Below, in pieces: positions 1 through 20,063 of a stretch of 36,210 nucleotides of DNA. Origin of the DNA: an uncultured Lachnospiraceae bacterium (GTDB taxonomy: Bacteria; Bacillota; Clostridia; Lachnospirales; Lachnospiraceae); the NCBI GenBank assembly GCA_947589095.1, contig CANQBX010000040.1, positions 1-36,210 of the forward strand, given 5' to 3'. The translations under genes were made by a program, and so were the position numbers. The notes beneath the pieces were generated by a model. That model searched no databases. It was not told the DNA's origin and saw only the letters and a list, made by a program, of their open reading frames with translations. How positions within the stretch are numbered: position 1 is the stretch's first letter; each line of letters opens with the position of its first letter.

Positions 1-206
1 ATGCGTCCGAATCCATAGGGCGAATGCCCGCGAGCGAGGAAACCGCAGGTTTCCGAGCCGCGCACTGCGGACTCGCGTCCCGCGCCCGTTCGTCGTGCTT
101 GCACGTAAGCCGGAACTCATGCGTCCGAATCCATAGGGCGAATGCCCGCGAGCGAGGAAACCGCAGGTTTCCGAGCCGCGCACTGCGGACTCGCGTCCCG
201 CGCCCG
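1..206. repeat. Two identical 88-bp direct repeats (1-88 and 119-206)
   Basis: Bases 1-88 and 119-206 are identical by eye, with a period of 118 bp and a 30-bp spacer. Each copy holds a perfect 7-bp inverted repeat with a 3-base loop (38-44 with 48-54; 156-162 with 166-172), plus further GC-rich inverted segments. The first copy starts at base 1, so the array may continue to the left. The second copy ends just before the ribosome binding site of the flippase gene. Open frames here only read through the repeat and have no ribosome binding site of their own. I see no transposase. It may be an intergenic repeat family or the end of a longer array. Confidence 0.9.
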
Positions 207-222
207 CGAAAGGAGCTCCATC

Positions 223-1563
223 ATGACCCATGTCCTCTCCCGCTGGCCGGCCCTTCTTATGGGGAGCGGCTCCCACAGGGAAAAACAGAATATCGTCTGG
301 AATATGGCGGGGAGCTTCTGCTATGCCTTTGCCAGTATGGTTCTCGCGTTTCTGGTCATGCGGATCGCCGGCGAGGATCAGGGGGGCGTCTTTGCTTTCG
401 GCTACAGCACGCTCGGGCAGCAGATGTTTATCGTGGCGTATTTCGGACTGCGCCCGTTCCAGATCACGGACGGCCGCGGCGAGTATCGTTTTGGCGATTA
501 TCTGCACCACAGGTTCCTGACCTGCGGGGCGGCCCTTGCAGGAGGGGCGGCCTGTCTTCTTCTGAGCGGTTACGCGCCGGCGAAGGCGGCGGTCGTGTTT
601 CTGTTAATCTGCTGGAAGGTGATCGATGGGTTTGCCGATGTGTATGAGTCGGAGTTTCAGCGGCAGGGACATCTTCATCTGACCGGCAAGTCCAATACGT
701 TCCGGACGATCCTGTCGGTGACGGTGTTTCTGACGGTTCTTGCGGCCGGCCGGCGGCTTGCGGCAGCCTGCGCGGCGGCCGTGGCGGCGCAGGCTGCCGG
801 TGTGCTGGTCTTCGATGTGGTGATGATCCGGCAGCTTCCGGCGGTGGATATGGGCTGGGAGTGGAGGCGGATGCGGCCGCTGACCCAAGCGGCGGCGCTT
901 CTGTTCGTATCGGTATTTTTGGATTTTTATATTTTTTCCGCCGCGAAGTATGCCATTGACGCGTATATGGATGATGCGGCGTCCGGGTATTTTAATCTGA
1001 TCTTTATGCCCACGTCGGTGATCAATCTGGCGGCGGGATTTGTTATACGGCCGGTACTTACCTATCTGACCGGCTATTGGACCGAGGGGAAATTTGAAAG
1101 GTTTAAAAAGATGCTCCTGCGCATTTCCGGCCTGATCGGCGTTTTGAGCTTCCTGGCGGTGGGTCTGGCCTGGTTTATCGGCCGTCCGGTACTGGGAATA
1201 CTGGAGATGCTTCTGGGCGGAGATTACGCGGGCAGCCTGACAGGGTATCATGTTCCGTTTGTTTTGGTTGTGCTGGGCGGCGGATTCTATGCATTGCTGA
1301 ATTTGTACTACTATGTTCTGGTGATTCTCCGCAGGCAGGATGTGATCTTTGCGATCTACGCGGTGATGACCGCAGCTGCGGTGTTCCTGGCGCCTGCGAT
1401 GGTGCGGCGGAGCGGAATTCCCGGAGCCGCGTATGCGTATCTGACGCTGATGACGGTTATGACCGCGGGTTTTGCGGTCTGCGCGTGGCTTTCGTACAGA
1501 CGGATGCGGAGGGAGACCGACCGGGAGGGAGAATACCGGCCCCGGACCGAGAGGGAGAAATAG
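223..1563 (+). CDS. Polysaccharide flippase, Wzx/MATE-like membrane protein
   Basis: The 446-residue product is strongly hydrophobic, with about 12 predicted membrane segments from residue 20 to 430, as expected of oligosaccharide flippases of the Wzx/RfbX type. These move lipid-linked sugar units across the cytoplasmic membrane. I chose ATG 223 because GAAAGGAGC lies at 207-215. The open frame extends back to 142, but that part only translates the 88-bp repeat. The C terminus is basic and charged. The next gene starts 11 bp downstream, so the two are co-transcribed. The family call rests on the membrane pattern, the length and the neighbours, not on a strict motif. A related PST-family transporter is equally possible. 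Confidence 0.85.
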   Translation: MTHVLSRWPALLMGSGSHREKQNIVWNMAGSFCYAFASMVLAFLVMRIAGEDQGGVFAFGYSTLGQQMFIVAYFGLRPFQITDGRGEYRFGDYLHHRFLTCGAALAGGAACLLLSGYAPAKAAVVFLLICWKVIDGFADVYESEFQRQGHLHLTGKSNTFRTILSVTVFLTVLAAGRRLAAACAAAVAAQAAGVLVFDVVMIRQLPAVDMGWEWRRMRPLTQAAALLFVSVFLDFYIFSAAKYAIDAYMDDAASGYFNLIFMPTSVINLAAGFVIRPVLTYLTGYWTEGKFERFKKMLLRISGLIGVLSFLAVGLAWFIGRPVLGILEMLLGGDYAGSLTGYHVPFVLVVLGGGFYALLNLYYYVLVILRRQDVIFAIYAVMTAAAVFLAPAMVRRSGIPGAAYAYLTLMTVMTAGFAVCAWLSYRRMRRETDREGEYRPRTEREK

Positions 1564-1574
1564 GAAGGAAAGAG

Positions 1575-2522
1575 ATGGATACTGTAAAAGCGACCATAGA
1601 TGTGATCATTCCGGTGTACCGGCCGGGTAAACGCTTTGCCAGGCTTCTGGCGATGCTGGAGCGGCAGACGCATCCGGTGAACCGGATCATTGTCATGAAA
1701 ACAGAGAGAGGCGGATGGAATGAAGCCAGCTACCGGCAGATCCCGAATCTGGAGATCCATTATCTGTCCAAGGCAGAATTTGACCACGGCGCTACCAGGA
1801 ACCGGGGGGCGTCCTGCTCGGAAGCAGATATAATAATCTTTATGACCGACGATGCAGTGCCGCAGGATAATGCGCTGGCAGAGCGGCTGGCGGCGGCGTT
1901 TGACCGGAAGGGTCCCGGGGGTGAAACGGTAGCCGCCGTGTATGCGCGGCAGCTTCCGGCCGGGGACTGCAGAGCGATCGAACGATACACGAGAAACTAT
2001 AATTATCCGGATAAGAGCCGGATCAAAACGATGAACGACCTGCCGGAGCTTGGAATCAAAACCTATTTTGCATCCAATGTCTGCTGCGCTTACCGCAGGG
2101 ATGTGTTTGAGAAGCAGGGCGGCTTCATAGACAGAACGATATTCAATGAAGACATGCTCTATATGGCGAAGGTGATGAAGGCCGGCTACGCCGTGGCTTA
2201 CGAGGCGGACGCGAAGGTGATCCACTCGCATAATATGACGTTTGCGCAGCAGTTTCGCCGGAATTTCGATCTGGCGGTATCGCAGGCGGATCATCCGGAA
2301 GTATTTGCCGGGGTGCCGTCGGAAGGAGAAGGAATCCGTATGGTGAAGCAGACGGCCGGATGGCTTTTAAGAACCGGCCGGGGATGGCTCCTGCCGGCGC
2401 TTGTCGCCGGCAGCGGGATCAAATTTCTCGGTTACCGGCTGGGGAAGATGTACCGGCATCTGCCTGAAAGGGTCGTCCTCCGGTGCACTGCGAATCCGGA
2501 CTACTGGACGGGCGGCAGATAG
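1575..2522 (+). CDS. GT2 family glycosyltransferase, rhamnosyltransferase-like
   Basis: The product is a 315-residue GT-A fold enzyme. The N-terminal strand VIIPVYRPGKR (residues 10-20) is the GT2 nucleotide-sugar start, TDDA (91-94) is the DXD-type metal site, and NED (191-193) fits the acidic catalytic motif. The segment FDHGATRNRG around residues 69-78 is typical of the rhamnosyltransferase branch of GT2 (RfbF-like). This fits rfbC 2.2 kb downstream, which makes the dTDP-L-rhamnose precursor. ATG 1575 follows AGGAAGGAA; the frame is open further upstream but overlaps the flippase gene. No clear membrane segment is seen, so it is probably a soluble or membrane-associated cytoplasmic enzyme. 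The donor and acceptor cannot be read from the sequence. Confidence 0.88.
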   Translation: MDTVKATIDVIIPVYRPGKRFARLLAMLERQTHPVNRIIVMKTERGGWNEASYRQIPNLEIHYLSKAEFDHGATRNRGASCSEADIIIFMTDDAVPQDNALAERLAAAFDRKGPGGETVAAVYARQLPAGDCRAIERYTRNYNYPDKSRIKTMNDLPELGIKTYFASNVCCAYRRDVFEKQGGFIDRTIFNEDMLYMAKVMKAGYAVAYEADAKVIHSHNMTFAQQFRRNFDLAVSQADHPEVFAGVPSEGEGIRMVKQTAGWLLRTGRGWLLPALVAGSGIKFLGYRLGKMYRHLPERVVLRCTANPDYWTGGR

Positions 2523-2581
2523 GAACGGGCTGTGGCCGGACTTAAGAAACGCAGGAAATACGAAAGGCGAGGGGATTGTTT

Positions 2582-2968
2582 ATGATGACGATAACGCTGC
2601 GGATCGCGCTGATTCTGGTATCGGTGGGGACTCTGTTTTTGATGATGCGCAGGATCCGCCAGTCAAAGATGCAGATCGAGAGCGCGGTTTTCTGGATCGT
2701 ACTGGCGCTGGTGCTGGTGGTTTTCAGCCTGTTTCCGGCGGTGGCGGATTTCGCCGCCCACTGTCTGGGAATCTATTCAACGGCGAATTTTCTGTTCCTG
2801 TTCGCGATTTTTGTGCTGATCGTGAAAGTATTTTATATGACGATCCATATCTCGCAGCTGGAGATGAAGATCCGGGAACTGGTGCAGCAGATGGCGCTTG
2901 ATGAAAAGAAGGCGCAGGAGGATAAGGCGCGTATTCAGGAGATTATGGCCCAGGAAGAGCCAAAATAG
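2582..2968 (+). CDS. DUF2304 small membrane protein
   Basis: The 128-residue product has hydrophobic segments near residues 3-22, 35-58 and 66-88, followed by a charged amphipathic helical tail. The motif around SKMQIESAVFW and the overall layout match DUF2304, a family often encoded beside GT2 enzymes in rhamnose-rich polysaccharide loci. Its biochemical role is unknown; a part in flipping or presenting lipid-linked sugars is a common guess. I prefer ATG 2582, six to seven bases after GGCGAGGGG (2566-2574). A TTG at 2576 would add two residues. It lies 59 bp after the glycosyltransferase and 33 bp before the DUF2142 gene, in the same operon. Confidence 0.8.
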   Translation: MMTITLRIALILVSVGTLFLMMRRIRQSKMQIESAVFWIVLALVLVVFSLFPAVADFAAHCLGIYSTANFLFLFAIFVLIVKVFYMTIHISQLEMKIRELVQQMALDEKKAQEDKARIQEIMAQEEPK

Positions 2969-3001: not shown

Positions 3002-4669
3002 ATGAGAGAAAAACATGAATGGAAACGGATCGTAACAGCGTCGGCGGTGGTGGGCGCGTTTGGCCTGTGGCATTTTATGGATGTGCGGGCGGGGGCGTCT
3101 GCCGTCGGCGACGGGTGGCTTACGGCGGGATATTTGTGCATGTGGGCGCTCGCGCTGGGGCTGGCGGTCGTTTTCGGATGGATGTTCATGAGACAGATCC
3201 GCGGCGGATGGAAGCTGGAGAAGATCTATCCGGCGGCTGCGCTTGCGCTGGGGCTTCTGTATATGTTTGTACTTCCGCCGATGTCGGCTCCGGATGAGAT
3301 CAGCCACTATATTACGGCTTACGAACTGTCGAGCCGTATGCTGGGGCAGCCGGCGCGCCGGATCGACGGCCGCGTGCTGGTCCGGGCGCAGGACTGGATC
3401 CTGGAAGATGTGTATGGCGATTATGCGATCTCTTTTGACGCCGGTTACTGGGCGGAAGACGACGGGAGCTTAAGCGGAGGCGCCGCGCCGGACAGCGTTG
3501 TCCTGGGGCAGCGGCTGAATGAGAGCACTTACCGCGCGATCCACGACATATGGACGGGGAAATTGCAGGGAAGACAGGACGTGGAGCCGCAAACGCCGGT
3601 TGTGACGTCCTTTCCGCCGGTGACTACGACGCCCGTGGCCTATGTGCCGCAGGCGATCGGGATTGCCGCGGCGAGACTCCTGCGTCTGAACAGCCTGTGG
3701 CTGGCGTATTTGGGAAGGTTCTGTAATCTTGTCTTTTTCACGTTTATGACGTGGCTGGCGCTTAAGCGGCTTCCTTTCGGGAAGGAGGTTCTTTTCGGAG
3801 TCGCGCTGCTGCCGATGACCCTTCATCTGTCGGCGTCCTTTTCCTACGACGTAATGATCCTGGCGTGTATGTTTCTGTTCACGGCTGTCTGCCTGGATCT
3901 GGCCTATGCCCGGGAACGCGTGCGGGTGCGGGACGTGGCGCTTCTTGCGGTGCTCATGGCGGCGGCCGGCCCGTGTAAGATGATCTACGCGCCGATGATG
4001 GGGCTCTGTCTTCTGATCCCGGTCCGCAAATTCGGCGGATGGGGCAGATGGCTGGCGTCGGCGGCCGCTGTATCCGGCGCATGGGCGGCTGCAATGCTGC
4101 TGGTGAATTCCCGGGTGGTGGGCGCGTACGCTGCGGCGGTAAATCCGGTGCTTTCTGCGACGGGGGAGGAGGGTTACAGCCTGCTGCTGCTCTTCCATCA
4201 TCCGATGCTTCTGATCCGTATGTTTTATAATACGCTGCTGCATCAGACGGACGAGTATCATCTGACGATGATCGGCGGCATGCTGGGGAATCTGGATCCG
4301 ATGCTGAATGTCCCGTACGTCCTTGTCATGTTTTTCACGGCGGGGCTGCTGCTTCTGGCGTTTCGGGTACCGGGGGAGAGCCTGACGGTTACGGGAGGAA
4401 AAAGGCTGTGGATCTTCGCGGTGTGCGCCGTGTGCGCGGCGGCTGCGCTTCTTTCCATGCTGATCGCCTGTACGCCCAGAACTTCCATGGTGATTGAGGG
4501 GGTTCAGGGAAGATATTTTCTGCCGTTTCTGCCGGCGCTTCTGCTGGCCTGCAAAAACGACCGTTTGGTTTTGACAAAGGATGGAAACCGTAGTATATTG
4601 TATTTAATGTGCTGCGCGAATCTGTATATACTGCTGAGGCTTTACAGCGTGGTGTGCCAGTGTATCTGA
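3002..4669 (+). CDS. DUF2142 membrane protein, predicted GT-C type glycosyltransferase
   Basis: The 555-residue product is a polytopic membrane protein with roughly 10-12 hydrophobic helices. The segment PPMSAPDEISHYITAYELS (about residues 93-111) carries the P-x-DE-x-x-H signature of DUF2142. These proteins resemble GT-C glycosyltransferases that use polyprenyl-phosphate sugars on the outer face of the membrane, with the acidic pair in the first loop as the likely catalytic site. ATG 3002 follows GCGGAGGAACGG. The context (flippase, GT2, DUF2304, rfbC) supports a role in building or decorating a cell-surface polysaccharide. The substrate is unknown. The GT-C role is family-level inference. 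Confidence 0.85.
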   Translation: MREKHEWKRIVTASAVVGAFGLWHFMDVRAGASAVGDGWLTAGYLCMWALALGLAVVFGWMFMRQIRGGWKLEKIYPAAALALGLLYMFVLPPMSAPDEISHYITAYELSSRMLGQPARRIDGRVLVRAQDWILEDVYGDYAISFDAGYWAEDDGSLSGGAAPDSVVLGQRLNESTYRAIHDIWTGKLQGRQDVEPQTPVVTSFPPVTTTPVAYVPQAIGIAAARLLRLNSLWLAYLGRFCNLVFFTFMTWLALKRLPFGKEVLFGVALLPMTLHLSASFSYDVMILACMFLFTAVCLDLAYARERVRVRDVALLAVLMAAAGPCKMIYAPMMGLCLLIPVRKFGGWGRWLASAAAVSGAWAAAMLLVNSRVVGAYAAAVNPVLSATGEEGYSLLLLFHHPMLLIRMFYNTLLHQTDEYHLTMIGGMLGNLDPMLNVPYVLVMFFTAGLLLLAFRVPGESLTVTGGKRLWIFAVCAVCAAAALLSMLIACTPRTSMVIEGVQGRYFLPFLPALLLACKNDRLVLTKDGNRSILYLMCCANLYILLRLYSVVCQCI

Positions 4670-4752: not shown

Positions 4753-5307
4753 ATGGGAAAGATAAAGGTAACGCCCTGCCACATCGAGGGGCTTTATGTG
4801 ATCGAGCCGGAGATTCATAAGGACGCCAGAGGGTATTTTGTAGAGACCTATAATCAGCGGGATTTTGAGGCGGCCGGACTGAATATGGTCTTCGTTCAGG
4901 ATAATCAGTCCATGTCCGTGAAGGGCGTGCTGCGGGGGCTTCATTACCAGAAGCAGTATCCGCAGGGGAAGCTTGTGCGGGCCGTCAGCGGCCGGGTATT
5001 CGATGTGGCGGTGGATCTGCGGGCGGATTCGGCTACTTACGGCCAGTGGTTCGGTGTGGAGCTGTCTGCCGAGAACAATAAGCAGTTTTATGTTTCTCCC
5101 GGCTTTGCCCACGGCTTCCTGGTCCTTTCGGATACGGCGGAATTCGCCTATAAGGTGACGGATTTCTATCATCCGGGCGATGAGGGCGGCCTGATCTGGA
5201 ACGATCCGGAGATCGGTATCGAGTGGCCCATCGAGGAGGGAATGGAACTGATCTTCTCCGAGCGGGATAAGAAATGGGGCGGGCTTAAGGATACGTTTAA
5301 GTTCTGA
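4753..5307 (+). CDS. rfbC: dTDP-4-dehydrorhamnose 3,5-epimerase
   Basis: This cytoplasmic cupin enzyme epimerises C3 and C5 of dTDP-4-dehydro-6-deoxy-D-glucose, the third step to dTDP-L-rhamnose. The product is 184 residues, the normal length. Family motifs are clear: RGLHYQ with catalytic His64, GKLVRAVSGRVFDVAVDLR (72-90), SPGFAHGF (115-122), the Tyr-rich stretch AYKVTDFYHPGDE (132-144) and WNDPEIGIEWP near 149-159. ATG 4753 lies 8 bp after AAAAGGAG (4737-4744); the longer open frame overlaps the DUF2142 gene and lacks a ribosome binding site. rfbA, rfbB and rfbD are not in the window, so the rest of the pathway is encoded elsewhere. Its presence suggests that the exported glycan contains rhamnose. 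Confidence 0.95.
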   Translation: MGKIKVTPCHIEGLYVIEPEIHKDARGYFVETYNQRDFEAAGLNMVFVQDNQSMSVKGVLRGLHYQKQYPQGKLVRAVSGRVFDVAVDLRADSATYGQWFGVELSAENNKQFYVSPGFAHGFLVLSDTAEFAYKVTDFYHPGDEGGLIWNDPEIGIEWPIEEGMELIFSERDKKWGGLKDTFKF

Positions 5308-5309
5308 GG

Positions 5310-5358
5310 CGCGCTTAACCGCTTTGGCGGGGAATGCACGCGCCCGGTTAAGGGCGCG
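5310..5358 (+). other. Hairpin between rfbC and the ABC permease gene
   Basis: CTTAACCG (5314-5321) pairs perfectly with CGGTTAAG (5345-5352). After a 2-base bulge, CGCG (5310-5313) pairs with 5355-5358, giving about 12 bp in total around a 23-base loop. There is no T-run, so it does not look like an intrinsic terminator. It sits in the 94-bp gap before the permease and could mark RNA processing or be incidental. Confidence 0.5.
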
Positions 5359-5401: not shown

Positions 5402-6214
5402 ATGAATTATCTTGTCACACTGGCGAAAGAAATGGTGAGACGGCGGAAGCTGATCTGGGACCTGGCGAAGTCCGATTTCCGGAAGCGCTTTGTAGGGTCC
5501 TATTTCGGCGTAGTCTGGATGTTCATCCAGCCGGTAGTCACGGTGCTGATCTATTTCTTCGTATTCCAGATGGGCTTTAAGAACGCGCCGCCGGTTCCGG
5601 GCTACCCTTACGTGCAGTGGCTGATCCCCGGGATTGTGCCGTGGTTCTATGTCAGCGAGGCGCTGAACGCAGGAACCGGATGCCTGCAGGAGTATAATTA
5701 TCTGGTTAAAAAAGTGGTCTTCCAGGTGGAGATCCTGCCGGTGATCAAGGTGATCTCCTGCCTGATGGTGCATGTGATCTTTGTGCTGATCATGGTGGCG
5801 GTGTTTCTGCTGTACGGTACCTTTCCGAAGGTCAGCTGGCTGCAGATCGCGTACTATTCGCTGGCGGCCACGGTTTTCTCGCTGGGGACCGTGTATTTCA
5901 CCAGCGCGGTCAATGTGTTTTTCAAGGATATGGCGCAGATCGTCGGAATCTTCCTGCAGGTCTGGATGTGGGTGACTCCGATCATGTGGGATCCGGCCAT
6001 GTTCGCGAATCATCCGGCCTGGCTCGATCAGGTGCTGAAGCTGAATCCGGTCTGGTATCTCGTCACCGGTTACCGGGACAGCATGCTGACCGGCGGCGCC
6101 TTCTGGGAGAGACCGGCGGTAACACTCTATTTCTGGGCGGTGACGGCGGCGCTGTTCCTGGCCGGGCTAAAGGTATTCAAGAGGCTGCGGCCGCATTTCT
6201 CGGACGTGCTGTAA
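5402..6214 (+). CDS. ABC-2 type polysaccharide export permease (Wzm-like)
   Basis: The 270-residue product has six predicted membrane helices. It opens with a charged amphipathic segment (WDLAKSDFRKRFVGSYFGVV, residues about 18-37) typical of Wzm/RfbA/TagG permeases. These form a dimeric channel with a nucleotide-binding partner to export finished undecaprenyl-linked glycans. The ATPase partner is encoded 116 bp downstream. ATG 5402 follows GGGAGAGG; the longer open frame has no ribosome binding site. Teichoic-acid export (TagG) is the alternative Gram-positive role. The C-terminal extension of the partner and the WbdD-like enzyme that follows favour O-antigen-type export. Confidence 0.92.
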   Translation: MNYLVTLAKEMVRRRKLIWDLAKSDFRKRFVGSYFGVVWMFIQPVVTVLIYFFVFQMGFKNAPPVPGYPYVQWLIPGIVPWFYVSEALNAGTGCLQEYNYLVKKVVFQVEILPVIKVISCLMVHVIFVLIMVAVFLLYGTFPKVSWLQIAYYSLAATVFSLGTVYFTSAVNVFFKDMAQIVGIFLQVWMWVTPIMWDPAMFANHPAWLDQVLKLNPVWYLVTGYRDSMLTGGAFWERPAVTLYFWAVTAALFLAGLKVFKRLRPHFSDVL

Positions 6215-6222
6215 GACGTAAG

Positions 6223-6292
6223 CCAGAGACTGACCGTGCGCGGATGCGCGGATAAAGCCGGAGTCTGATTGTGCGCGGATGCGCGGAAAGAG
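6223..6292. repeat. Imperfect 35-bp tandem duplication upstream of the ABC ATPase gene
   Basis: The 17-mer GTGCGCGGATGCGCGGA occurs at 6236-6252 and again at 6271-6287, exactly 35 bp apart. The flanking bases (CAGAGACTGA versus CGGAGTCTGA, and AAAGCCGG versus AGAGCCAGG) are also similar, so a unit of about 35 bp is duplicated. It fills most of the 116-bp gap between permease and ATPase genes. No terminator or promoter is evident in it. Confidence 0.75.
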
Positions 6293-6330: not shown

Positions 6331-7761
6331 ATGGAGAATGCCATCATCGTAAAAGATGTGACAAAAATCTATAAGCTGTATGATAAGCCGATCGACAGGC
6401 TGAAGGAGTCTCTGAGTCCTTTCCATAAGGAGTACCACAGGAAATTCTATGCCCTGAACGGCCTTTCGTTTTCCGTGGAGAAGGGCCAGACAGTGGGCAT
6501 CATCGGCACCAACGGTTCCGGCAAATCCACGATCCTTAAGATCATCACCGGCGTTCTGTCGCCCACCACCGGAGAGGTGACGGTGAACGGAACGGTATCG
6601 GCGCTTCTGGAACTGGGCGCCGGTTTTAATATGGACTATACCGGCATCGAGAATGTCTATATGAACGGCAGCATGATGGGTTTTTCGCGGAAGGAGATGG
6701 ACGCGAAGCTGCAGGATATCCTGGATTTCGCGGAGATCGGCGATTTCGTGAATCAGCCCGTGAAGACCTATTCCAGCGGTATGTTTGTGCGCCTGGCTTT
6801 CGCGCTGGCGATCAATGTGGATCCGGAGATTCTGATCGTGGACGAGGCGCTGTCTGTGGGGGACGTATTCTTCCAGGCCAAATGCTACCGGCGTATGGAG
6901 GAGATTCGGCAGAAGGGAACCACGATCCTGATGGTGACCCACGATATGGGGAGTATCCTGAAGTACTGCGATAAGGTGGTGCTGCTAAATAAAGGCAATT
7001 TCATCGCCGAGGGAACCGCCGGCCACATGGTGGATCTGTACAAGAAGATCCTGGCGAATCAGATGGAATCGCTGGAGGAGGAGCTGGCGGCGGAGCGGCG
7101 GGCGGCGGCCGAATCCGGCGACCGGGCCGGGGAGAGGGCGGCGGACGGATCCGGCAGTGGGGCCGGGGAGAAGGCGGCGGACGGATCCGGCAGCGGGGCC
7201 GGGTGGAAGGCGGCGGCCGGCTCCGGCGACCGGATCGGTACGGAGGTGTCCCGCGGGCAGCGGAAACGTCCCGCGCTCATGAAGGACAGTCTGGCGGTCA
7301 ATCCAAACCGCACCGAGTACGGCGACGGAAGGGCGGAGATCTACGACATGGGTCTGTTTGACAGCCGTGGGAATCTGACGAATCTGCTTCTGAAAGGCGA
7401 ACAGTTCACTATCCGCGAGAAGATCCGTTTCCACGCGCCGATCCAGACGCCGATCTTCACGTATACGATCAAGGATAAGAAGGGAACCGAGCTGACCGGC
7501 ACGAATACGATGTACGAGGGGATGGACATCCGGCCCGTGCGGGACGGCGATGAGTACGAGGTCTCATTTACACAGAAGATGACGCTGCAGGGGGGAGAAT
7601 ACCTGCTGAGTATGAGCTGTACCGGCTTCGAGCTGGGCGAGCATGTGGTCTATCACCGGCTCTACGACGTGCTGAGCCTGACTGTGATATCGAACAAGAA
7701 CACGGTGGGGGTCTACGATATGGAGTCCGAGGTGAAAGCGGAGAAGAAAGGAACACAATGA
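6331..7761 (+). CDS. ABC transporter ATPase with C-terminal carbohydrate-binding domain (Wzt-like)
   Basis: The 476-residue protein powers glycan export with the preceding permease. Residues 1-230 are the nucleotide-binding domain: Walker A GTNGSGKST (59-67), signature YSSGM (147-151), Walker B ILIVDE (167-172) and switch His204. Residues 266-301 are three 12-residue Gly/Ala/Ser-rich repeats that act as a linker. About residues 320-470 match the Wzt C-terminal domain, which in E. coli O9a binds the modified end of the finished polymer. ATG 6331 follows AGGAGGAG (6319-6326). The stop codon overlaps the start of the next gene (ATGA, 7758-7761), which implies translational coupling to the putative chain terminator. 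Plain TagH-type exporters lack this C-terminal domain. Confidence 0.93.
   Translation: MENAIIVKDVTKIYKLYDKPIDRLKESLSPFHKEYHRKFYALNGLSFSVEKGQTVGIIGTNGSGKSTILKIITGVLSPTTGEVTVNGTVSALLELGAGFNMDYTGIENVYMNGSMMGFSRKEMDAKLQDILDFAEIGDFVNQPVKTYSSGMFVRLAFALAINVDPEILIVDEALSVGDVFFQAKCYRRMEEIRQKGTTILMVTHDMGSILKYCDKVVLLNKGNFIAEGTAGHMVDLYKKILANQMESLEEELAAERRAAAESGDRAGERAADGSGSGAGEKAADGSGSGAGWKAAAGSGDRIGTEVSRGQRKRPALMKDSLAVNPNRTEYGDGRAEIYDMGLFDSRGNLTNLLLKGEQFTIREKIRFHAPIQTPIFTYTIKDKKGTELTGTNTMYEGMDIRPVRDGDEYEVSFTQKMTLQGGEYLLSMSCTGFELGEHVVYHRLYDVLSLTVISNKNTVGVYDMESEVKAEKKGTQ
7126..7233 (+). repeat. Three 36-bp in-frame tandem repeats in the Wzt-like linker
   Basis: Units begin at 7126, 7162 and 7198. They encode AGERAADGSGSG, AGEKAADGSGSG and AGWKAAAGSGDR (residues 266-301), and a partial, diverged unit precedes them. 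The first two differ at only two bases; the third has diverged. Because the unit is a multiple of three, copy-number change would lengthen or shorten the linker between the ATPase and carbohydrate-binding domains without breaking the frame. Confidence 0.9.
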
Positions 7762-10700
7762 AACCAGAGAAAGAACGAACAGAGGTGGAACGCAGGCTGC
7801 TGGGTCTTATCAAGACCTACGGAGCCGACGGAAAGGCGATTCTGGGCGCCAATCCCAAGCTGGAATTTCTTTACGCGCTCTCTCCGCAGAGGGAGAATCT
7901 GCTGGAATGGTATCCGTTCCGCAGGGAGGGAACGCTTCTGCAGGTGGGGTCTGATTTCGGCGCCTTGACGGGGCTTTACGCCCGGAGGGTATCCCGGGTA
8001 GATGTGCTCGATCCCTCCTGGGCCAATCTTGAGATCAACCGCCTGCGCCACGGCGGGCAGGACGGATATAAGAATATCAATTATGTGCAGGGGACGCTTG
8101 CGGAATACCTTCCGCAGGCGAAAGGGCTTTACGATTACGTAGTGATCATCGGCGATCTGGAGCAGGACGAGCTGAGCGGGGAGGAGAGCGAGGCCCAGAT
8201 CGCGGCGGCGAAGTCCCTTCTGAAACCGGACGGTGAACTGATCGCGGCGGTATGCAATCCCCTCGGCGTCAAATATTGGGCCGGCGCGTCGAAGGACGTC
8301 CACAGCCTTTCGAAGGATTCTCTGACGCGATGGCTGATGGGCGGCGACGGCGGCAGTCTGGAGTTTTACTACCCGATGCCGGATTACAAGCTGCCGGTGA
8401 CGATCTATTCCGACGCGTATCTGCCGCGGGAGGGGGACCTGACCGATACGATCGCGGCCTATGATTTTCCGGATTATCCGTTTTTCGATATGGGAGCGGC
8501 CTTCGACCAGGTGGTGAAGGAGGGAAAGTTTGACCAGTATGCCAACGCCTATCTGGCGATCTGGCGCCGCGGCGGCCGGCCGATCCAAAAGGACGGTCCC
8601 CAGTTTATGAAATACAACAGCACCCGACGGGAGGAATTCCAGCTTAAGACGATGATCCTGGGCGGGACCGGCGGAGAGCGCCGGGTGGTGAAAAGCGCCC
8701 TGAACGCGGAGGGCAGAGGGCATATCGATCATTTTACAGCGCAGTATGAGGCGCTGTCCGCCCAGCATGAGCTGCTAAAGTATCTGCCGGGGGAGAAGGA
8801 TCCGGACGGAAGCGCGGTCACATTCCCGTATCTGACCGGCCGGACGCTGGCCGCGCGGCTCACGGACGAGATCGTAAGCGGACAGGCGCCGATCGAACTG
8901 ATCCGGCAGAGCATCGATGTGCTTTTGGCGGCGGAGGAAGGAGATATTGAGCCCTTCGCGCCGACGGAAGGCTTCGCGATCGTGTTCGGCGGGAAGGAAA
9001 TGAACATGCTGGCGGGATATACCGCGGCGCCGGCGGCGGATGAAACGGGAGCGGACGCCGGAACGGAACCGGACGGAGACGGAGCGGCGGCCGGCCGGCC
9101 GCGGGACGCCGGCTGGAACGTCCCCTGCTTCCATGTATCCAATATCGATCTGCTGTTTGAGAATGTACTGCTGACCGACGACGGCAATTACTGTCTGGAT
9201 TATGAATGGGTCTTTGATTTCCCGGTACCCATCGATTATATCCGTTACCGGATCCTGTTCTACGCCTACCGGCAGTTTAAGAGCCTGATGGACGGCTGCG
9301 GGACGCTTGGCGAGTGGCTTGGCCGGTTCGGCATTACGCCGGAGGCGGAAGCGCTTTATGATTCCATGGAGAGAAATTTCCAGTATTATGTCCATGGGGA
9401 GAACCAGGTTCTTTATCTGGAGAATTATCTGGTAAAGCCGCGGTCCGCGAAAGGCTTTACGGAGATGGACGAGGAGTTGCGCCGCCTGGAGGCGGAGCTG
9501 GCGCGTTCGAAGGAGAATGAAGGCCGTTTGAAGGCTCAGATCCATGACCAGAGCGCGGCGATCCGCAAGATGACGGAGGTCAAGCGGCTGACGGACAATC
9601 ATGTGACGAATCTGGAGATCATGATTAAAGACCTGCGCCATGAGATCGACGAGATGGGCAGGACTTTGACCTATCTGAACGGCCATGAAGCGGTTATTTT
9701 CAAGATCCGCCGCAAGCTGGGGGAGAAATTCAACGCGAAATACCCAAAGGGCTCGCCGCAGCGGAAGAAGTTTCATTATCGGAAGGAATATCTGGCCCAT
9801 CCGATCCGTTCCTGGAAATTCTATAAGACGGAGGAAGGGAAGAACCTGCGGGACGGCGACTTTGAGATCGGCGATCTGTACCGGGAGCACCGGAAGCTGG
9901 TATTTCAGCAGCCGGAGCAGCCGGAGGTGAGCATTGTGATTCCGGTCTATAACCAGATCGGATATACGTACGCATGCCTCGTCTCGATCCTGGAGCATAC
10001 GAAGGATGTATCCTACGAAGTGATTATCGCCGACGATGTGTCCACCGACGCTACGGAGCACATCGGCCGTTACGTGGAAGGCGTGACGGTCAGCCGGGGC
10101 GGGACGAACCAGGGCTTCCTTAAGAACTGCAACCAGGCGGCGAAGAAGGCCCGCGGCCGGTATATCATGTTCCTGAATAATGACACGCAGGTGACGGAAG
10201 GATGGCTCTCCTCGCTGGTGAGTCTGATCCGTTCCGATGCGTCCATCGGCATGGTGGGTTCCAAGCTTGTCTATCCCGACGGACGGCTGCAGGAGGCGGG
10301 CGGCATCATCTGGAGCGACGGCTCCGGCTGGAATTACGGCCGTCTGGATGATCCGGACAAGCCTCAGTACAATTACGTGAAGGACGTGGATTATATCTCC
10401 GGCGCGGCGATCCTTCTGCCCCGCGAGCTGTGGGAGCGGATCGGCGGATTCGACGAGCGCTACGCGCCGGCCTACTGCGAGGATTCGGATCTGGCTTTCG
10501 AGGTGAGAAAGGCGGGATACCGGGTGGTGTACCAGCCGCTGTCGAAGGTGATTCATTACGAAGGCATTTCCAATGGCACCGATGTACAGGGCGACGGACT
10601 TAAGCGGTATCAGGTCGAGAATTCGGAGAAGCTTAAGGAGAAATGGGCGGAGGAGCTGAAGAACCAGTGCGAGAATACCGGCAATCCGGATCCGTTCCGG

Positions 10701-11852
10701 GCACGCGAGCGCAGCATGGGCAAACCGGTCATCCTGGTGATCGATCATTACGTGCCTACGTTCGATAAGGACGCCGGTTCCAAGACCACTTTCCAGTATC
10801 TGAAGATGTTTTTGAAGCATGGCTACGTAGTCAAATTCCTGGGCGACAATTTCGCTCATGAGGAGCCCTATTCCACGGCGCTGGAGCAGATGGGCGTCGA
10901 GATCCTGTCCGGCGCGGAATACGAGGCGGGTATCTGGGACTGGATCTCCGCCCACAGGAAGGATATCGCCGTCGCGTATCTGAACCGTCCGCATATCGCC
11001 ATCAAATATGTGGATTATCTGCGGGAGAACACGGATATCAAGCTGATCTATTACGGTCATGACCTGCACTATCTGCGGGAAGGGCGCGAGTACGCGCTGA
11101 CCATGGATCCGGACCGGCGCAGGGCCGCTGATTACTGGAAGGGGATCGAGCTGTCCCTCTTCTATAAGGTGGATATGAGCTACTATCCCTCCTGCGTGGA
11201 GCGCGACGCGGTCAGGGCCGAGGATGAGAACATTCCGGTAAAGGATATCGTGGCTTATGTGTATGATGCGTTCCGGGATGATATTCCGCAGGATTTCGCG
11301 GAACGGGAGGGGATCCTGTTCGTGGGCGGCTTCGCGCATCCGCCGAACGCGGACGCGGTGCTGTGGTTCGCGAAAGAAGTCTATCCGCTGCTCTGCACCG
11401 GATTCAGGAGCGCGGGGGCCGAACCGCCGAAATTCTATGTGGCCGGTTCCCGGGTGACCGACGAGATCAGGGCTCTGGAGCAGACGGTGCCGGGCGTGGT
11501 AGTAAAGGGTTTCGTCAGCGATGAGGAGCTGGTACGGCTTTACGATACCACCCGCCTGGTGGTCGTGCCGCTGCGCTACGGCGCCGGCGTGAAGGGCAAG
11601 GTAGTGGAGGCGCTGTATAACGGAGCCGCAGTCGTTACCACATCCATCGGCGCCGAGGGAATCCCGCAGGCGGAGGATGTGATGGTGATCGCCGATCAGG
11701 CGGAAGCGTTCGCCGGGGCGGTGGCCGATATCTATCAGAGCCCGGAGAGCTGCCGGGCGCTGAGCGAGAGAAGTCAGGAGTTTGTGCGGAAGTATTACAG
11801 CATGGACGCGGCGTGGAGCGTGATCGCGGAGGATTTCCCGCGTGAACCGTAG
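7758..11852 (+). CDS. Multidomain methyltransferase-kinase-coiled coil-GT2-GT4 protein (WbdD-like fusion)
   Basis: The product has 1364 residues. Domains in order: a SAM methyltransferase-like fold (about 55-165; LLQVGSDFGALTG at 60-72, acidic VDVLD at 81-85, YDYVVIIGDL at 125-134); a kinase-like fold (about 283-550) with candidate Lys312, hinge-like FPYLTGRTLAARL (356-368), catalytic loop DLLFEN (464-469, the D-x4-N spacing of protein kinases) and metal-site Asp481 in LDYEW; a coiled coil (about 566-645); a GT2 domain (about 723-950; VSIVIPVYN, NNDT at 807-810); and a GT4 domain (about 990-1355; GAGVKGKVVEALYNGAAVV). The order methyltransferase, kinase, coiled coil is that of WbdD, which caps Wzm/Wzt-exported glycans and sets their length. 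The ATGA overlap with the Wzt-like gene supports that link. The capping role is inference; GT activity is well supported. Confidence 0.9.
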   Translation: MKPEKERTEVERRLLGLIKTYGADGKAILGANPKLEFLYALSPQRENLLEWYPFRREGTLLQVGSDFGALTGLYARRVSRVDVLDPSWANLEINRLRHGGQDGYKNINYVQGTLAEYLPQAKGLYDYVVIIGDLEQDELSGEESEAQIAAAKSLLKPDGELIAAVCNPLGVKYWAGASKDVHSLSKDSLTRWLMGGDGGSLEFYYPMPDYKLPVTIYSDAYLPREGDLTDTIAAYDFPDYPFFDMGAAFDQVVKEGKFDQYANAYLAIWRRGGRPIQKDGPQFMKYNSTRREEFQLKTMILGGTGGERRVVKSALNAEGRGHIDHFTAQYEALSAQHELLKYLPGEKDPDGSAVTFPYLTGRTLAARLTDEIVSGQAPIELIRQSIDVLLAAEEGDIEPFAPTEGFAIVFGGKEMNMLAGYTAAPAADETGADAGTEPDGDGAAAGRPRDAGWNVPCFHVSNIDLLFENVLLTDDGNYCLDYEWVFDFPVPIDYIRYRILFYAYRQFKSLMDGCGTLGEWLGRFGITPEAEALYDSMERNFQYYVHGENQVLYLENYLVKPRSAKGFTEMDEELRRLEAELARSKENEGRLKAQIHDQSAAIRKMTEVKRLTDNHVTNLEIMIKDLRHEIDEMGRTLTYLNGHEAVIFKIRRKLGEKFNAKYPKGSPQRKKFHYRKEYLAHPIRSWKFYKTEEGKNLRDGDFEIGDLYREHRKLVFQQPEQPEVSIVIPVYNQIGYTYACLVSILEHTKDVSYEVIIADDVSTDATEHIGRYVEGVTVSRGGTNQGFLKNCNQAAKKARGRYIMFLNNDTQVTEGWLSSLVSLIRSDASIGMVGSKLVYPDGRLQEAGGIIWSDGSGWNYGRLDDPDKPQYNYVKDVDYISGAAILLPRELWERIGGFDERYAPAYCEDSDLAFEVRKAGYRVVYQPLSKVIHYEGISNGTDVQGDGLKRYQVENSEKLKEKWAEELKNQCENTGNPDPFRARERSMGKPVILVIDHYVPTFDKDAGSKTTFQYLKMFLKHGYVVKFLGDNFAHEEPYSTALEQMGVEILSGAEYEAGIWDWISAHRKDIAVAYLNRPHIAIKYVDYLRENTDIKLIYYGHDLHYLREGREYALTMDPDRRRAADYWKGIELSLFYKVDMSYYPSCVERDAVRAEDENIPVKDIVAYVYDAFRDDIPQDFAEREGILFVGGFAHPPNADAVLWFAKEVYPLLCTGFRSAGAEPPKFYVAGSRVTDEIRALEQTVPGVVVKGFVSDEELVRLYDTTRLVVVPLRYGAGVKGKVVEALYNGAAVVTTSIGAEGIPQAEDVMVIADQAEAFAGAVADIYQSPESCRALSERSQEFVRKYYSMDAAWSVIAEDFPREP

Positions 11853-11892
11853 CATGCGCGGATAACCAGATTTCTGAATGAAACATGAAATA

Positions 11893-11934
11893 CCCCGGCC
11901 GATACTTATCCGGTACCGGCCGGGGCGTTTTTTT
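11893..11934 (+). terminator. Intrinsic terminator ending the polysaccharide operon
   Basis: CCCCGGCC (11893-11900) pairs with GGCCGGGG (11918-11925) around a 17-base loop, and is followed by seven T residues (11928-11934). It lies 40 bp after the stop of the 1364-residue protein gene. The opposite strand has only a weak T-rich flank, so it may serve the converging lepB gene less efficiently. Confidence 0.9.
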
Positions 11935-16634: not shown

Positions 16635-18191
16635 ATGATCGGGAATCTGGAAGAGATTTTGACGAATATCGCGGGGGAAGGCGGAGCGGCAGGACCGGAG
16701 GAGACAGCCGGACAGCCGGACAGTGCGGGAACGGAAGGAACCGCGGGAGCGCCGGATCATACGGGAACGGAAGAGACCGGCGAAGCGCCGGACCATACGG
16801 GAACGGAAGAGACCGGCGGAGCGCCGGATCATACGGGAGCGGAAGAGACCGGCGGAGCGCCGGATCATACGGGAGCGGGAGAAACCGTGGCAGCGCCGGA
16901 TCATGCGGGAGAGGAAGAGACTGTGGGAGCGCCGGGGCATGCGGGGACGGAAGAAACCGCGGGAGCGTCGGGGCATGCGGGATCGGAAGAAACCGCCGGC
17001 GCGGGTACGGAAGAGGCCGCGGAAACATCGGATGGTGCGGGAACGGAAGAGAACGCAGGCTTGACGGGGAATCCCGGATCGGCGGGCGCGGGAGGACAGG
17101 CTGAGGCCGGTGACGCGCTGTGGTCCGGCGGCCCGTTGGGACTTGTTTTCGGAGAGACCGGAGCGGGTGAAGGCGTGAATGAGGAAATGACGGCGGACAG
17201 CTATGTCATTGGCGGGGACGGCGAGACGCAGTTTGTTTTTGACGCGGAACCGGAGACGGAGTATATCGTCAGCACTCCCGCTGTTTCCGATTCCGAAAAA
17301 ACAAGTACATTTTCCAAGACCTACCACGCTGCGGCGGGAACGATCGCGAAGACGGCCCAGAGTGCCGCCAAGAGCGCGGCGCCGGCGCTGAAAACCATAG
17401 CTTTCAATGTTGTGAACGCCGTTCTGATCGTGATCATCGGCGTTCAGATCGCCAGGCTTCTGCGAAAGACGCTGAATAAGACGTTTGAGAAGATTCATAT
17501 GGACGCGTCGCTGCGCACGTTCCTTTCCTCGGTGATTTACGTCCTGGTCTGCGGAGTAGCCGGGTTCATGGCGCTGGAGCGGGTCGGGGTAAGTTCGGCT
17601 TCGATCGTAGCCATACTGGGTTCGGCGGGACTGGCGGTCAGCCTTTCCCTTCAGGATTTCCTGGCGAATTTCGCGGGAGGCGTGATCATCCTGATCCTGA
17701 AGCCGTTCAGGCCGGGCGACTATATCGTCTGCGGATCGGCGGAAGGGACGGTTCTGTCCACGAGCCTGTTTTACACAACGCTGAATACGATCGATAACCG
17801 CCAGATGATCCTGCCCAACGGCGCGCTGTCCAACGCCAATCTCATCAATGTGACCGCGGAGCCGAGAAGGCGTCTGGAGATCCGGGTGGATATTTCTTAT
17901 GATTCGGACATCCGTACGGCCAAGGAGATCCTGCGGAGGCTGTTCGACGGGCATCCGGATATCATCCATGAGGAGGAGGTCGTGGTGTTTGTGGACAGCC
18001 TCGGAGAGAGCGGAATCACGCTGGTGTGCAGGGGCTGGATCGCGAAGGAGAATTACTGGAGCGCCAAGTGGAAGCTGACCGAAGATGTGAAGTATGCGTT
18101 TGACGAAGCCGGAGTCGTGATTCCCTACAGGCAGGTGGTCGTGCATATGCCGGATGGGGGGAACGAAGACGGCGGCAATATGGGAAAGTAG
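16635..18191 (+). CDS. MscS-family mechanosensitive channel with acidic repeat N terminus
   Basis: The 518-residue product ends in a standard small-conductance mechanosensitive channel core (about residues 250-510). Two helices are followed by the pore-lining TM3 segment GSAGLAVSLSLQDFLANFAG and then FRPGDYI, RQMILPNGALSNANLIN and a C-terminal beta/alpha cage. It releases solutes on hypo-osmotic shock. Before the core lies a hydrophilic region of about 240 residues that is absent from typical MscS. Residues 31-142 are 12-residue repeats rich in Glu, Gly, Thr and Ala, of the type GTEETGGAPDHT. No signal peptide is visible. ATG 16635 follows AGGAGA (16619-16624). Very long open frames on the other strands here come from the repeat composition. 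Confidence 0.9.
   Translation: MIGNLEEILTNIAGEGGAAGPEETAGQPDSAGTEGTAGAPDHTGTEETGEAPDHTGTEETGGAPDHTGAEETGGAPDHTGAGETVAAPDHAGEEETVGAPGHAGTEETAGASGHAGSEETAGAGTEEAAETSDGAGTEENAGLTGNPGSAGAGGQAEAGDALWSGGPLGLVFGETGAGEGVNEEMTADSYVIGGDGETQFVFDAEPETEYIVSTPAVSDSEKTSTFSKTYHAAAGTIAKTAQSAAKSAAPALKTIAFNVVNAVLIVIIGVQIARLLRKTLNKTFEKIHMDASLRTFLSSVIYVLVCGVAGFMALERVGVSSASIVAILGSAGLAVSLSLQDFLANFAGGVIILILKPFRPGDYIVCGSAEGTVLSTSLFYTTLNTIDNRQMILPNGALSNANLINVTAEPRRRLEIRVDISYDSDIRTAKEILRRLFDGHPDIIHEEEVVVFVDSLGESGITLVCRGWIAKENYWSAKWKLTEDVKYAFDEAGVVIPYRQVVVHMPDGGNEDGGNMGK
16725..17060 (+). repeat. 36-bp in-frame tandem repeat array in the mscS-like gene
   Basis: Units start at 16725, 16761, 16797, 16833, 16869, 16905, 16941 and 16977, then a shortened 24-bp unit leads to 17001, and a further unit starts at 17037. 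Each opens with a form of RCGGGAACGGAAGA and encodes variants of GTEETGGAPDHT. Units in the middle are nearly identical, and units at the 3' end have diverged. The spacing is exactly 36 bp apart from the one 24-bp step, so the reading frame is kept. Confidence 0.93.
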
Positions 18192-18631: not shown

Positions 18632-19972
18632 ATGGGGGAAGGTATGCGAAAAATGGCCATTCTGGGCGGACTTGCCGCTGGAATGGTGCTTGGAGCCTGT
18701 TTCGCGGTGTATGGAACAGGGACAGATCCGGCGGCGCGAAAGGAGGCCGGGCGCGCAGGCGCGGCCGCTTTGGAAGGCGCAAGGGGGGAATCCTGCGCTG
18801 CGCTTACGCGGATTTGGGAAAAGGTGAAGGGCAGCGAAGCCGTGCTCACCGGCGAGGATCCGCTGATGATACCGGACAGCCGGTTTCTGGCAGGCGACAG
18901 GTCGGAGAATGATCTGCGCGTGATGTCCATTGCAGGACAATGCATGGCGGGAGACGGTGCGGATCGCGTATTCTATGTGGTCGGCAGGAACTATATGCCT
19001 GAGGGGAGCATTCTGCCGGCGCTGTTCGGCAGCTGTCTGGAGTATTCCTGCACGCCGGAGGAGCCAGTCTCATGGCAGGGGGATACGTATTGTGCCGTTC
19101 GGTTCGCGGTGCGGGAGGTTCCGGATGGAGGAACCGCGGAACCGGACGCGAAAGAGACAGGCCCGGAAGATCCGGATGCGGGAGCTTCCGGCGGCGCGGA
19201 CGAAGGTACGGCTCTTTGGAGCGACGGGAGCATTCCTTCGCTGCATCATTGGAATATCGGAGACGTGGTGACGCGGACGCTTGACGGCGTCAGCCGCCGG
19301 TTCCGGTGCATTGACCTGCATTACGGCGAAGGAGGATCGCGGCAGGGCCAGAGTCTGGCGCTGTTTCTGTGCGAGTCCGTGATTCCGGCGAATACCGGCT
19401 CGGAGTATGCCTATGAGCGGCTTGAGGACGGGAGCCGCGGCTGCGTCTATCATCCCGGGCCGGTGGTGAACTTCGGGGAAAGCTCTGAATATGCGGATTC
19501 GAAGATCCGCAGCTGGCTGGCGGCGCAGGAGGCCGCCGCGGATATCTTTCCGGCGGCGAGCGTCGGAGTGGAGAGCGGCTGTATGGGGCGCACCGCGCCG
19601 GGAAGCTTCAGCCGGTTCGCGGAGTCGGATCTTAAGCTTAACCGGCTGGGCAGCCAGATCCTGACGGACCGGTATTTCATCCTGTCGGTGGATGAGGCGC
19701 TGAAGTACAGGGAATACCTGTGGAATGTGGATGGCTGTGATGAAGAAGAGACGGCGGCGAACGCGGGAGCCTTCAGCAGCGGCTATTGGCTCAGGACGCC
19801 GATGGGAGACGGCAGCGGGGAAACCGGGTGCGTCTATGTGGTCGATCTTGTAAACGGGAATATCCATCCGCAGGCCGTCAGGCCGGACGCAGACGGGGAG
19901 ATGGATGAGGAGCTGGCTGTAACCGGCCCGATCGGGGTACGGCCGGCATTTGCGCTCAGGCAGAGGAACTGA
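18632..19972 (+). CDS. Secreted or lipid-anchored DUF6273 domain protein
   Basis: The 446-residue product starts with a short hydrophobic export signal (about residues 7-27). LGAC (20-23) within it fits a lipobox, so it could be a lipoprotein, but the basic region before it is weak. A low-complexity acidic linker (about 165-195) follows. The C-terminal part (about 205-445) looks like DUF6273, with ending motifs SGYWLRTPMGDG, GCVYVVDLVNGNI and IGVRPAFAL, as found in secreted Firmicutes proteins of unknown role, often beside cell-wall-binding proteins. ATG 18632 follows AAGGAGC; M5 or M8 are alternatives. The next gene starts 91 bp later without a terminator, so they are probably co-transcribed. 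Confidence 0.82.
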   Translation: MGEGMRKMAILGGLAAGMVLGACFAVYGTGTDPAARKEAGRAGAAALEGARGESCAALTRIWEKVKGSEAVLTGEDPLMIPDSRFLAGDRSENDLRVMSIAGQCMAGDGADRVFYVVGRNYMPEGSILPALFGSCLEYSCTPEEPVSWQGDTYCAVRFAVREVPDGGTAEPDAKETGPEDPDAGASGGADEGTALWSDGSIPSLHHWNIGDVVTRTLDGVSRRFRCIDLHYGEGGSRQGQSLALFLCESVIPANTGSEYAYERLEDGSRGCVYHPGPVVNFGESSEYADSKIRSWLAAQEAAADIFPAASVGVESGCMGRTAPGSFSRFAESDLKLNRLGSQILTDRYFILSVDEALKYREYLWNVDGCDEEETAANAGAFSSGYWLRTPMGDGSGETGCVYVVDLVNGNIHPQAVRPDADGEMDEELAVTGPIGVRPAFALRQRN

Positions 19973-20063
19973 GATGCGGGGAGCGGTGCTTGGGCCGGCG
20001 GAAGGACGGAACGGACGGCGCCGTGTCCGGAAGAATATGAATAGGGGAAAGGAGAAGATATTT

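Follow-up and report, generated by a model that had tools for sequence, protein, structure and literature searches.

In Klebsiella pneumoniae O7, ORF6 (ORF6-O7) carries a methyltransferase, a kinase, a carbohydrate-binding module (CBM), a coiled coil, and two family 2 glycosyltransferase (GT2) domains in that order, and is a proven terminator fused to polymerase modules. It phosphorylates O-3 of the terminal rhamnose and then methylates the phosphate, both activities having been shown in vitro; its D441A variant blocks export and leaves high-molecular-weight polymer, as expected of unexported chains (PMC11231755). Relatives of ORF6-O7 are named there in alphaproteobacteria, gammaproteobacteria, cyanobacteria, and an archaeon, and the word "Gram-positive" is absent from the main text. 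This study concerns a 36,210-nucleotide stretch of DNA (the window) from an uncultured Lachnospiraceae bacterium (GenBank assembly GCA_947589095.1, contig CANQBX010000040.1, positions 1 to 36,210 of the forward strand), in which the final gene of an eight-gene operon encodes a 1364-residue multidomain protein. We consider it likely that this protein is a polymerase, a ruler, and a phosphate-capping terminator in a single polypeptide, serving a wall polysaccharide of Lachnospiraceae that is exported by an ATP-binding cassette (ABC) transporter and probably contains rhamnose, and that its methyltransferase domain is probably inactive.

Several other described terminators share part of this design. 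WbbB of K. pneumoniae O12 also combines a terminator, a ruler, and two polymerizing glycosyltransferases (GTs) in one chain, but terminates by Kdo addition through a GT (PMC11231755). WbdD of Escherichia coli O9a and K. pneumoniae O3 resembles the window protein in its methyltransferase-kinase-coiled coil order, its place after Wzt, and probably its fold; however, its kinase cannot be aligned by sequence, its methyltransferase is active, and it lacks GTs and recruits WbdA as a separate polymerase (PMC3482155), whereas Pfam places the polymerase GT2 and GT4 in the window chain itself. In Gram-positives, WsaE of Geobacillus stearothermophilus fuses a methyltransferase to two rhamnosyltransferases, produces a terminal 2-O-methyl cap, and acts with Wzm/Wzt export; a kinase is not among the three active domains named in the available text (PMC2943079). 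The S-layer glycan of the C. difficile Ox247 locus, likewise Clostridial and ABC-exported, has a phosphate-based non-reducing cap, 2,3-cyclophosphoryl-rhamnose, for which the accessible part of the source names no enzyme (PMC6254364). Both Gram-positive systems are likened to the window protein by description only. The suggestion made in a first-pass annotation, that this locus extends cap-dependent ABC export to Gram-positives, holds insofar as the locus is Clostridial, but it is not the first such case, as these two systems precede it. Among the papers listed in a search of the open-access literature for methyltransferase-kinase terminators in Gram-positives, none went beyond the precedents named here.

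The gene is an uninterrupted frame from ATG to stop, with the following parts:
7758..11852, plus strand: putative terminator-polymerase gene, multidomain, 1364 residues, final gene of the operon
7857..8582, plus strand: class I methyltransferase fold, residues 34-275, with eroded S-adenosylmethionine (SAM) site signatures (fold searches and alignment)
8598..9395, plus strand: kinase-like domain, residues 281-546, with K312, D464, N469, D481, and E483 invariant (alignment and models)
9447..9704, plus strand: presumed ruler, a continuous helix with a heptad pattern, residues 564-649 (AlphaFold and periodicity)
9921..10592, plus strand: GT2 domain, residues 722-945 with approximate limits (Pfam match at 725-847)
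10755..11837, plus strand: GT4-type domain, residues 1000-1360 with an estimated N-terminal limit (Pfam match at 1185-1327)

The open reading frame (ORF), Pfam, and AlphaFold confirm that the gene is real and well formed, with the five regions listed in the first-pass annotation. In the full protein, Pfam detected GT2 (E 1.2e-23) and Glyco_trans_1_4, of GT4 type (E 6.9e-19), while Methyltransf_11 at residues 61-162 fell below the cut-off; with residues 1-650 alone, Methyltransf_25 was barely above it (28.1 versus 27 bits), and a methyltransferase model was matched by 49 of the 51 rows of the alignment designated A2. The gene is not a chance frame, because its first 650 residues are matched in 24 of 26 genomes of the same genus (source genome counted) and the eight-gene order is identical in all 16 same-genus loci fetched. 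An antisense frame of 1026 residues opposite the gene (8775-11855) is read as a presumed GC-rich shadow.

An AlphaFold2 model of residues 1-650, built on the 51-row alignment (mean pLDDT 84.3, pTM 0.78), contains a methyltransferase-type domain followed by a kinase-like domain and one unbroken helix at 564-649. The methyltransferase fold claimed for residues 55-165 is supported by this model, by Methyltransf_25, and by structural matches: a Foldseek search of the PDB returned 1221 matches at E <=0.001, of which the top was a histamine methyltransferase and the best 50 were in majority methyltransferases. A kinase-like fold at residues 283-550 was likewise recovered in the predicted structures. 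In a kinase-only model from a 65-row alignment (pLDDT 87.4, pTM 0.85), three strands, the third of which carries K312, are followed by a long helix, a strand, helices, and short strands; D464 and N469 lie in the loop joining two short strands, and D481 comes right after the next strand. This predicted order of elements fits a kinase. The coiled coil also held up, the hydrophobic period of residues 564-649 being strongest at 3.5 residues among six periods tried. The last kinase-side helix of the model ends at 557 and the coiled-coil helix begins at 564, leaving no room for a CBM.

Relationship to ORF6-O7

A tblastn search of a plasmid collection found two places, encoding a 1457-residue protein of P. 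asturiensis and a 649-residue protein of C. braakii. The former follows an ABC permease and ATPase and ends in two GT2 stretches; ahead of the latter lie rml genes together with an ABC permease and ATPase. When compared with the Clostridial profile by hhalign, the P. asturiensis protein aligned along 499 columns over the methyltransferase and kinase (E 3.9e-52), and the C. braakii protein also aligned over both domains (E 9.3e-47). Residues Y28, Y66, G91, G93, E112, and Y158 of the P. asturiensis protein stand at the exact positions published for ORF6-O7, with the catalytic Asp at 443 rather than 441, and C. braakii has letters identical to those of P. asturiensis in the SAM-site and catalytic Asp columns. 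The P. asturiensis protein is a putative orthologue of ORF6-O7 and, judged by sequence, the nearest known relative of the window protein is of the ORF6-O7 type and not WbdD, a link that runs via P. asturiensis and the published residue numbers. The two plasmid-borne terminators (L133:6809-11182 and L134:6809-8758) lie beside ABC exporter genes, which suggests that they belong to mobile surface-glycan loci.

The window protein and ORF6-O7 thus have in common homologous methyltransferase and kinase domains (by way of P. asturiensis), a coiled coil between the terminator and the GTs, two C-terminal GTs, and adjoining Wzm/Wzt and rhamnose pathway genes. ORF6-O7 differs in having a CBM and a second GT2, whereas the window protein lacks the CBM, has a GT4-type second GT, and has lost SAM-site signatures of the methyltransferase: Y66 (Y39 in the window) and G91 (G64) are kept and D85 stands for E112, while Y28, G93, and Y158 are lost. 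In addition, the window host is Gram-positive, and its operon has an added set of genes resembling streptococcal GacIJKL. The first-pass idea of capper, ruler, and polymerase in a single polypeptide therefore stands as a reading but not as a novelty, having already been proven for ORF6-O7 (PMC11231755); since the window gene is closest to a known Klebsiella protein, it does not represent a new principle.

Distribution and methyltransferase erosion in Clostridia

One scan of a bacterial and archaeal genome collection yielded at least 578 relatives, and the best 80 loci were analysed. Class A, with methyltransferase, kinase, coiled coil, GT2, and GT4 in a single chain, accounted for 15 loci, so that the five-domain order recurs elsewhere; another 15 (class B) had a separate methyltransferase followed by a kinase-coiled coil-GT2-GT4 protein. 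Methyltransferase-kinase proteins without these GTs were found in 35 loci (class C), and 14 (class D) had the two domains on adjacent genes without the GT2 and GT4 pair, although four class D kinase genes also had a GT2 match (L104, L113, L115, and L121). The remaining locus, L079, was cut off and falls outside these classes. Wzt with a C-terminal domain was encoded upstream in 76 of the 80 loci, and in 71 of these it lay <=330 bases away. Wzm was encoded upstream in 63 loci, and 53 encoded RmlC at any position. Among the four loci without Wzt, the match lay less than 1 kb from the locus end in L087 and L100 and about 2 kb in L086, while L120 had full flanks and still no Wzt. Ten class A or B loci, including some from C. 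symbiosum and Enterocloster (L061-L065, L067, L068, L089, L110, and L118), have Wzt and the terminator with no Wzm upstream in the fetched stretch. Where class A and B loci lacked RmlC, ten neighbours were checked for nucleotide-sugar genes; six belonged to other metabolic or unrelated families and four were unmatched.

Within the family, the kinase domain was found at E <=1e-10 in 155 of 299 genomes from 298 genera (profile A3). A phylum-wide scan with profile A2 matched 324 of 398 genomes, mainly through generic methyltransferases, with scores of at least 100 bits in 14 genomes and listed matches that reached the kinase catalytic region in 7. The broad Clostridial distribution of the terminator module is a new part of these findings.

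The spacer between the kinase end and GT2 measured 171-185 residues in 37 of 39 class A and B rows and 235 in two. Mean identity within the genus was 66% for the methyltransferase, 59% for the kinase, 62% for the coiled coil, 85% for GT2, and 76% for GT4. A near-constant spacer of variable sequence is as expected of a ruler, and the coiled coil may act as a ruler of nearly fixed length. The fused proteins of L040 and L057, with the 235-residue spacer, constitute a natural ruler-length variant.

Conservation was compared in an 88-row alignment (22 class A, 15 B, 35 C, 14 D, and two Gram-negative rows). Every one of the 86 Clostridial rows has K312, D464 (ORF6-O7 D441), and N469, the Asn five residues on from D464; D464 and N469 are also present in both Gram-negative rows. 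The 65-row kinase alignment shows no variation at the Lys, the catalytic Asp, the Asn, or the second Asp. In the methyltransferase of the 37 class A and B rows, Y28 and Y158 are lost throughout, and G93 is replaced and E89 changed to Q in 31 rows each. Alignment-free motif counts, given for classes A and B versus C and D, were 0/37 versus 46/49 for the EDH loop, 3/37 versus 48/49 for [ED]xGxGxG, and 0/37 versus 48/49 for both GxxEY and the N-terminal Tyr motif; both Gram-negative rows carry all four. Ninety methyltransferase columns are conserved in C and D, of which A and B keep 35 and lose 34, compared with 21 kept and none lost among 23 such kinase columns (losses, Fisher p 1.8e-4).

A tree of the kinase region alone groups A and B, the window protein among them, in one clade (support 98/97), whose sister, with weaker support (98/76), is L071 plus L075, both with an intact methyltransferase. 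In this sample, a single branch therefore carries both the methyltransferase erosion and the joining of kinase, GT2, and GT4. The erosion is not put down to fusion in itself, because the P. asturiensis protein and the GT2-bearing class D genes belong to groups that keep the signatures. At 66% identity within the genus, the domain is not decaying freely and therefore retains some function; by its sequence it seems degenerate but retained. Because its SAM-site signatures have been lost in this lineage, the cap is more likely to be phosphate than methyl-phosphate, and the other new part of this work is that the A and B clade appears to have lost methylation. The chances appear evenly balanced that fusion and SAM-site loss on one branch produced a kinase-only terminator with a phosphate cap and a conserved pseudo-methyltransferase turned to some other use, for example to hold the kinase or the end of the chain; in that case, by analogy with the C. 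difficile S-layer glycan, the cap might possibly be cyclised.

Alternative explanations

The main rival to a phosphate-capping protein is the same machine with a methyltransferase active via a rearranged SAM pocket, giving a methyl-phosphate cap as in K. pneumoniae O7. The 66% identity of the domain, the retention of G64, G68, and D126 in all 51 A2 rows, the Methyltransf_25 match, and the intact methyltransferase that accompanies GT fusion in other proteins are compatible with activity. However, the near-complete absence of the four motifs from A and B, compared with 46-48 of the 49 Clostridial relatives outside that clade, makes this explanation unlikely, and a missed upstream start supplying the Tyr motif was rejected, as the 67 codons preceding the start do not contain the motif. 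A different possibility is that the kinase-like domain binds substrate as a pseudokinase, which would leave the protein as a polymerase and nothing more, its tether being non-catalytic. Classical kinases carry an HxD motif in the catalytic loop, and its histidine is missing here (SNID in the window); in addition, no kinase family is among the 25 listed of the 35 Pfam families matched by residues 1-650 and the A2 rows. Nevertheless, the four invariant residues of the 65-row alignment and the essential role of the homologous Asp in ORF6-O7 (PMC11231755) make a pseudokinase very improbable; the kinase region of ORF6-O7 is likewise an unannotated domain (Kelly et al., PMC11231755, section 11). Scarcely credible is the first-pass reading of a true WbdD orthologue that gained two GTs in Gram-positives. 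The WbdD reference used here, the E. coli HS protein, matches 4azs and sits after Wzt in E. coli HS, so domain order and gene position agree with the window, and in the structural comparison with the 1-650 model WbdD structures ranked 4, 6, 12, and 15 (E 1.1e-8 to 7.7e-8), with alignments of 542-614 columns including gaps, long enough for both domains. Among the best 50 matches, the sole other row of similar span was a Rickettsia protein named PKMT2 (634 columns). The WbdD TM-scores were only 0.20-0.31, and details or the domain arrangement must therefore differ. Moreover, hhalign aligned WbdD over just 76 methyltransferase columns and gave its kinase a profile probability of 0.35%, so orthology of the kinase was rejected, whereas the ORF6-O7-type proteins align over both domains. 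The label "WbdD-like" is thus apt for domain order and perhaps for the fold, but not for kinase homology.

Several points also weigh against a phosphate-capping terminator-polymerase. Neither biochemical work nor a glycan structure was found for the source organism, and a literature search for the C. bolteae polysaccharide structure gave nothing usable. The link to ORF6-O7 is indirect. A search of PDB sequences with the kinase profile gave weak matches only, with a ribosomal protein as the best (E 0.046) and no kinase below E 0.1; JAK1 chains followed at E 0.11-0.14, in an alignment pairing the invariant Lys with the lysine of JAK1 VAVKS. At the K312 column one Gram-negative row has H and the other R, and just one of the pair keeps D481. 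GT fusion occurs without methyltransferase loss, since P. asturiensis and the four GT2-bearing class D loci keep the signatures almost throughout, and within the genus the methyltransferase is still better conserved than the kinase. Finally, 17 of the 80 loci lack an upstream Wzm; in four of five tested genomes without a neighbouring Wzm, one of 64-69% identity lies beyond the fetched stretch, but none was found in the genome of C. symbiosum.

Operon context, proposed mechanism, and implications

The gene follows seven others on the plus strand:
142..1563, plus strand: flippase-like membrane protein, start uncertain (by eye, without a Pfam match)
1485..2522, plus strand: GT2, presumed GacI-like polyprenyl-phosphate sugar synthase, start uncertain (Pfam)
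2576..2968, plus strand: DUF2304 small membrane protein, presumed GacJ-like (Pfam E 7.3e-32)
3002..4669, plus strand: DUF2142 membrane protein, presumed GT-C, GacL-like (Pfam E 1.1e-47)
4753..5307, plus strand: RmlC, dTDP-4-dehydrorhamnose 3,5-epimerase; ORF opens at 4609 (Pfam E 1.2e-72)
5402..6214, plus strand: Wzm, ABC-2 permease; ORF opens at 5324 (Pfam and gene order)
6331..7761, plus strand: Wzt, ABC ATPase with Wzt_C (PF14524, E 1.1e-41); ORF opens at 6271
11892..11926, plus strand: inverted repeat after the large gene, weak terminator candidate (repeat scan)

The Wzt C-terminal domain bears out the first-pass description of the adjacent gene, whose stop overlaps the start of the large gene. 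A 36-base repeat (3.7 copies, 7101-7233) lies in the linker that joins the Wzt ATPase to its C-terminal domain. The terminator candidate has a 6-pair stem at 11909-11924 with the T run of the plus strand within the stem, and three such sites occur in the region compared with 1.4 expected. RmlB and RmlD were found together on another contig of the same genome in a search for these two, RmlA being outside the search; with RmlC in the operon, dTDP-L-rhamnose is therefore likely to be available. We take DUF2304 to be the GacJ family and DUF2142 to be a GT-C, and the GT2-DUF2304-flippase-DUF2142 set may, by analogy, be a GacIJKL-like side-sugar system. In streptococci, GacI, GacJ, GacK, and GacL attach a side sugar outside the cell (PMC8035078, PMC10821137). 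As there, a GT2, a small membrane protein, a flippase-like protein, and a multi-spanning presumed GT-C stand beside what is probably a rhamnan locus, a likeness of gene types; the flippase-like protein of the window has no Pfam match.

The domain order, predicted folds, homology to ORF6-O7-type proteins, operon, conservation, and motif loss are observed; the mechanism that we infer from them for a phosphate-capping terminator-polymerase covers what the domains catalyse, the chemistry of the cap, the action of the ruler, the sugar, and the side-chain system. A lipid-linked chain would be extended in the cytoplasm by the C-terminal GT2 and GT4 while the coiled coil keeps the N-terminal kinase at a fixed spacing. 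A chain end reaching the kinase would be phosphorylated and growth would stop; the Wzt C-terminal domain would then recognise the phosphorylated end, and Wzm/Wzt would export the chain. The side sugar would be added outside the cell by the GT2-DUF2304-flippase-DUF2142 set, as by GacI-J-K-L. In the A and B clade the methyltransferase domain would have been retained with methyl transfer probably lost, leaving a phosphate cap.

Farther along the window, a 36-base repeat (8.7 copies, 16692-17003) occupies the N-terminal part of an MscS-type channel gene, and a 1183-residue frame (19950-23501) ends in choline-binding-like repeats below Pfam cut-offs. A 4193-residue frame (23575-36156) with four SpaA prealbumin-like stretches is probably a giant surface adhesin; its FCIAPG and AAQTAVW motifs resemble, we presume, those of thioester domains.

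Found in roughly half the genomes sampled from this large family of gut bacteria, and in most loci closely following a Wzt that bears a C-terminal domain, the terminator module makes the question of its role directly testable. Enzymes of this type are also candidates for adding the phosphate cap to a clostridial S-layer glycan. The A and B clade offers a natural experiment in which ruler length, polymerase, and kinase have been kept with the methyltransferase apparently off. If the proposed mechanism is true, phosphate or methyl-phosphate caps would, given the wider occurrence of the form whose methyltransferase is intact, commonly serve as export signals in Lachnospiraceae.

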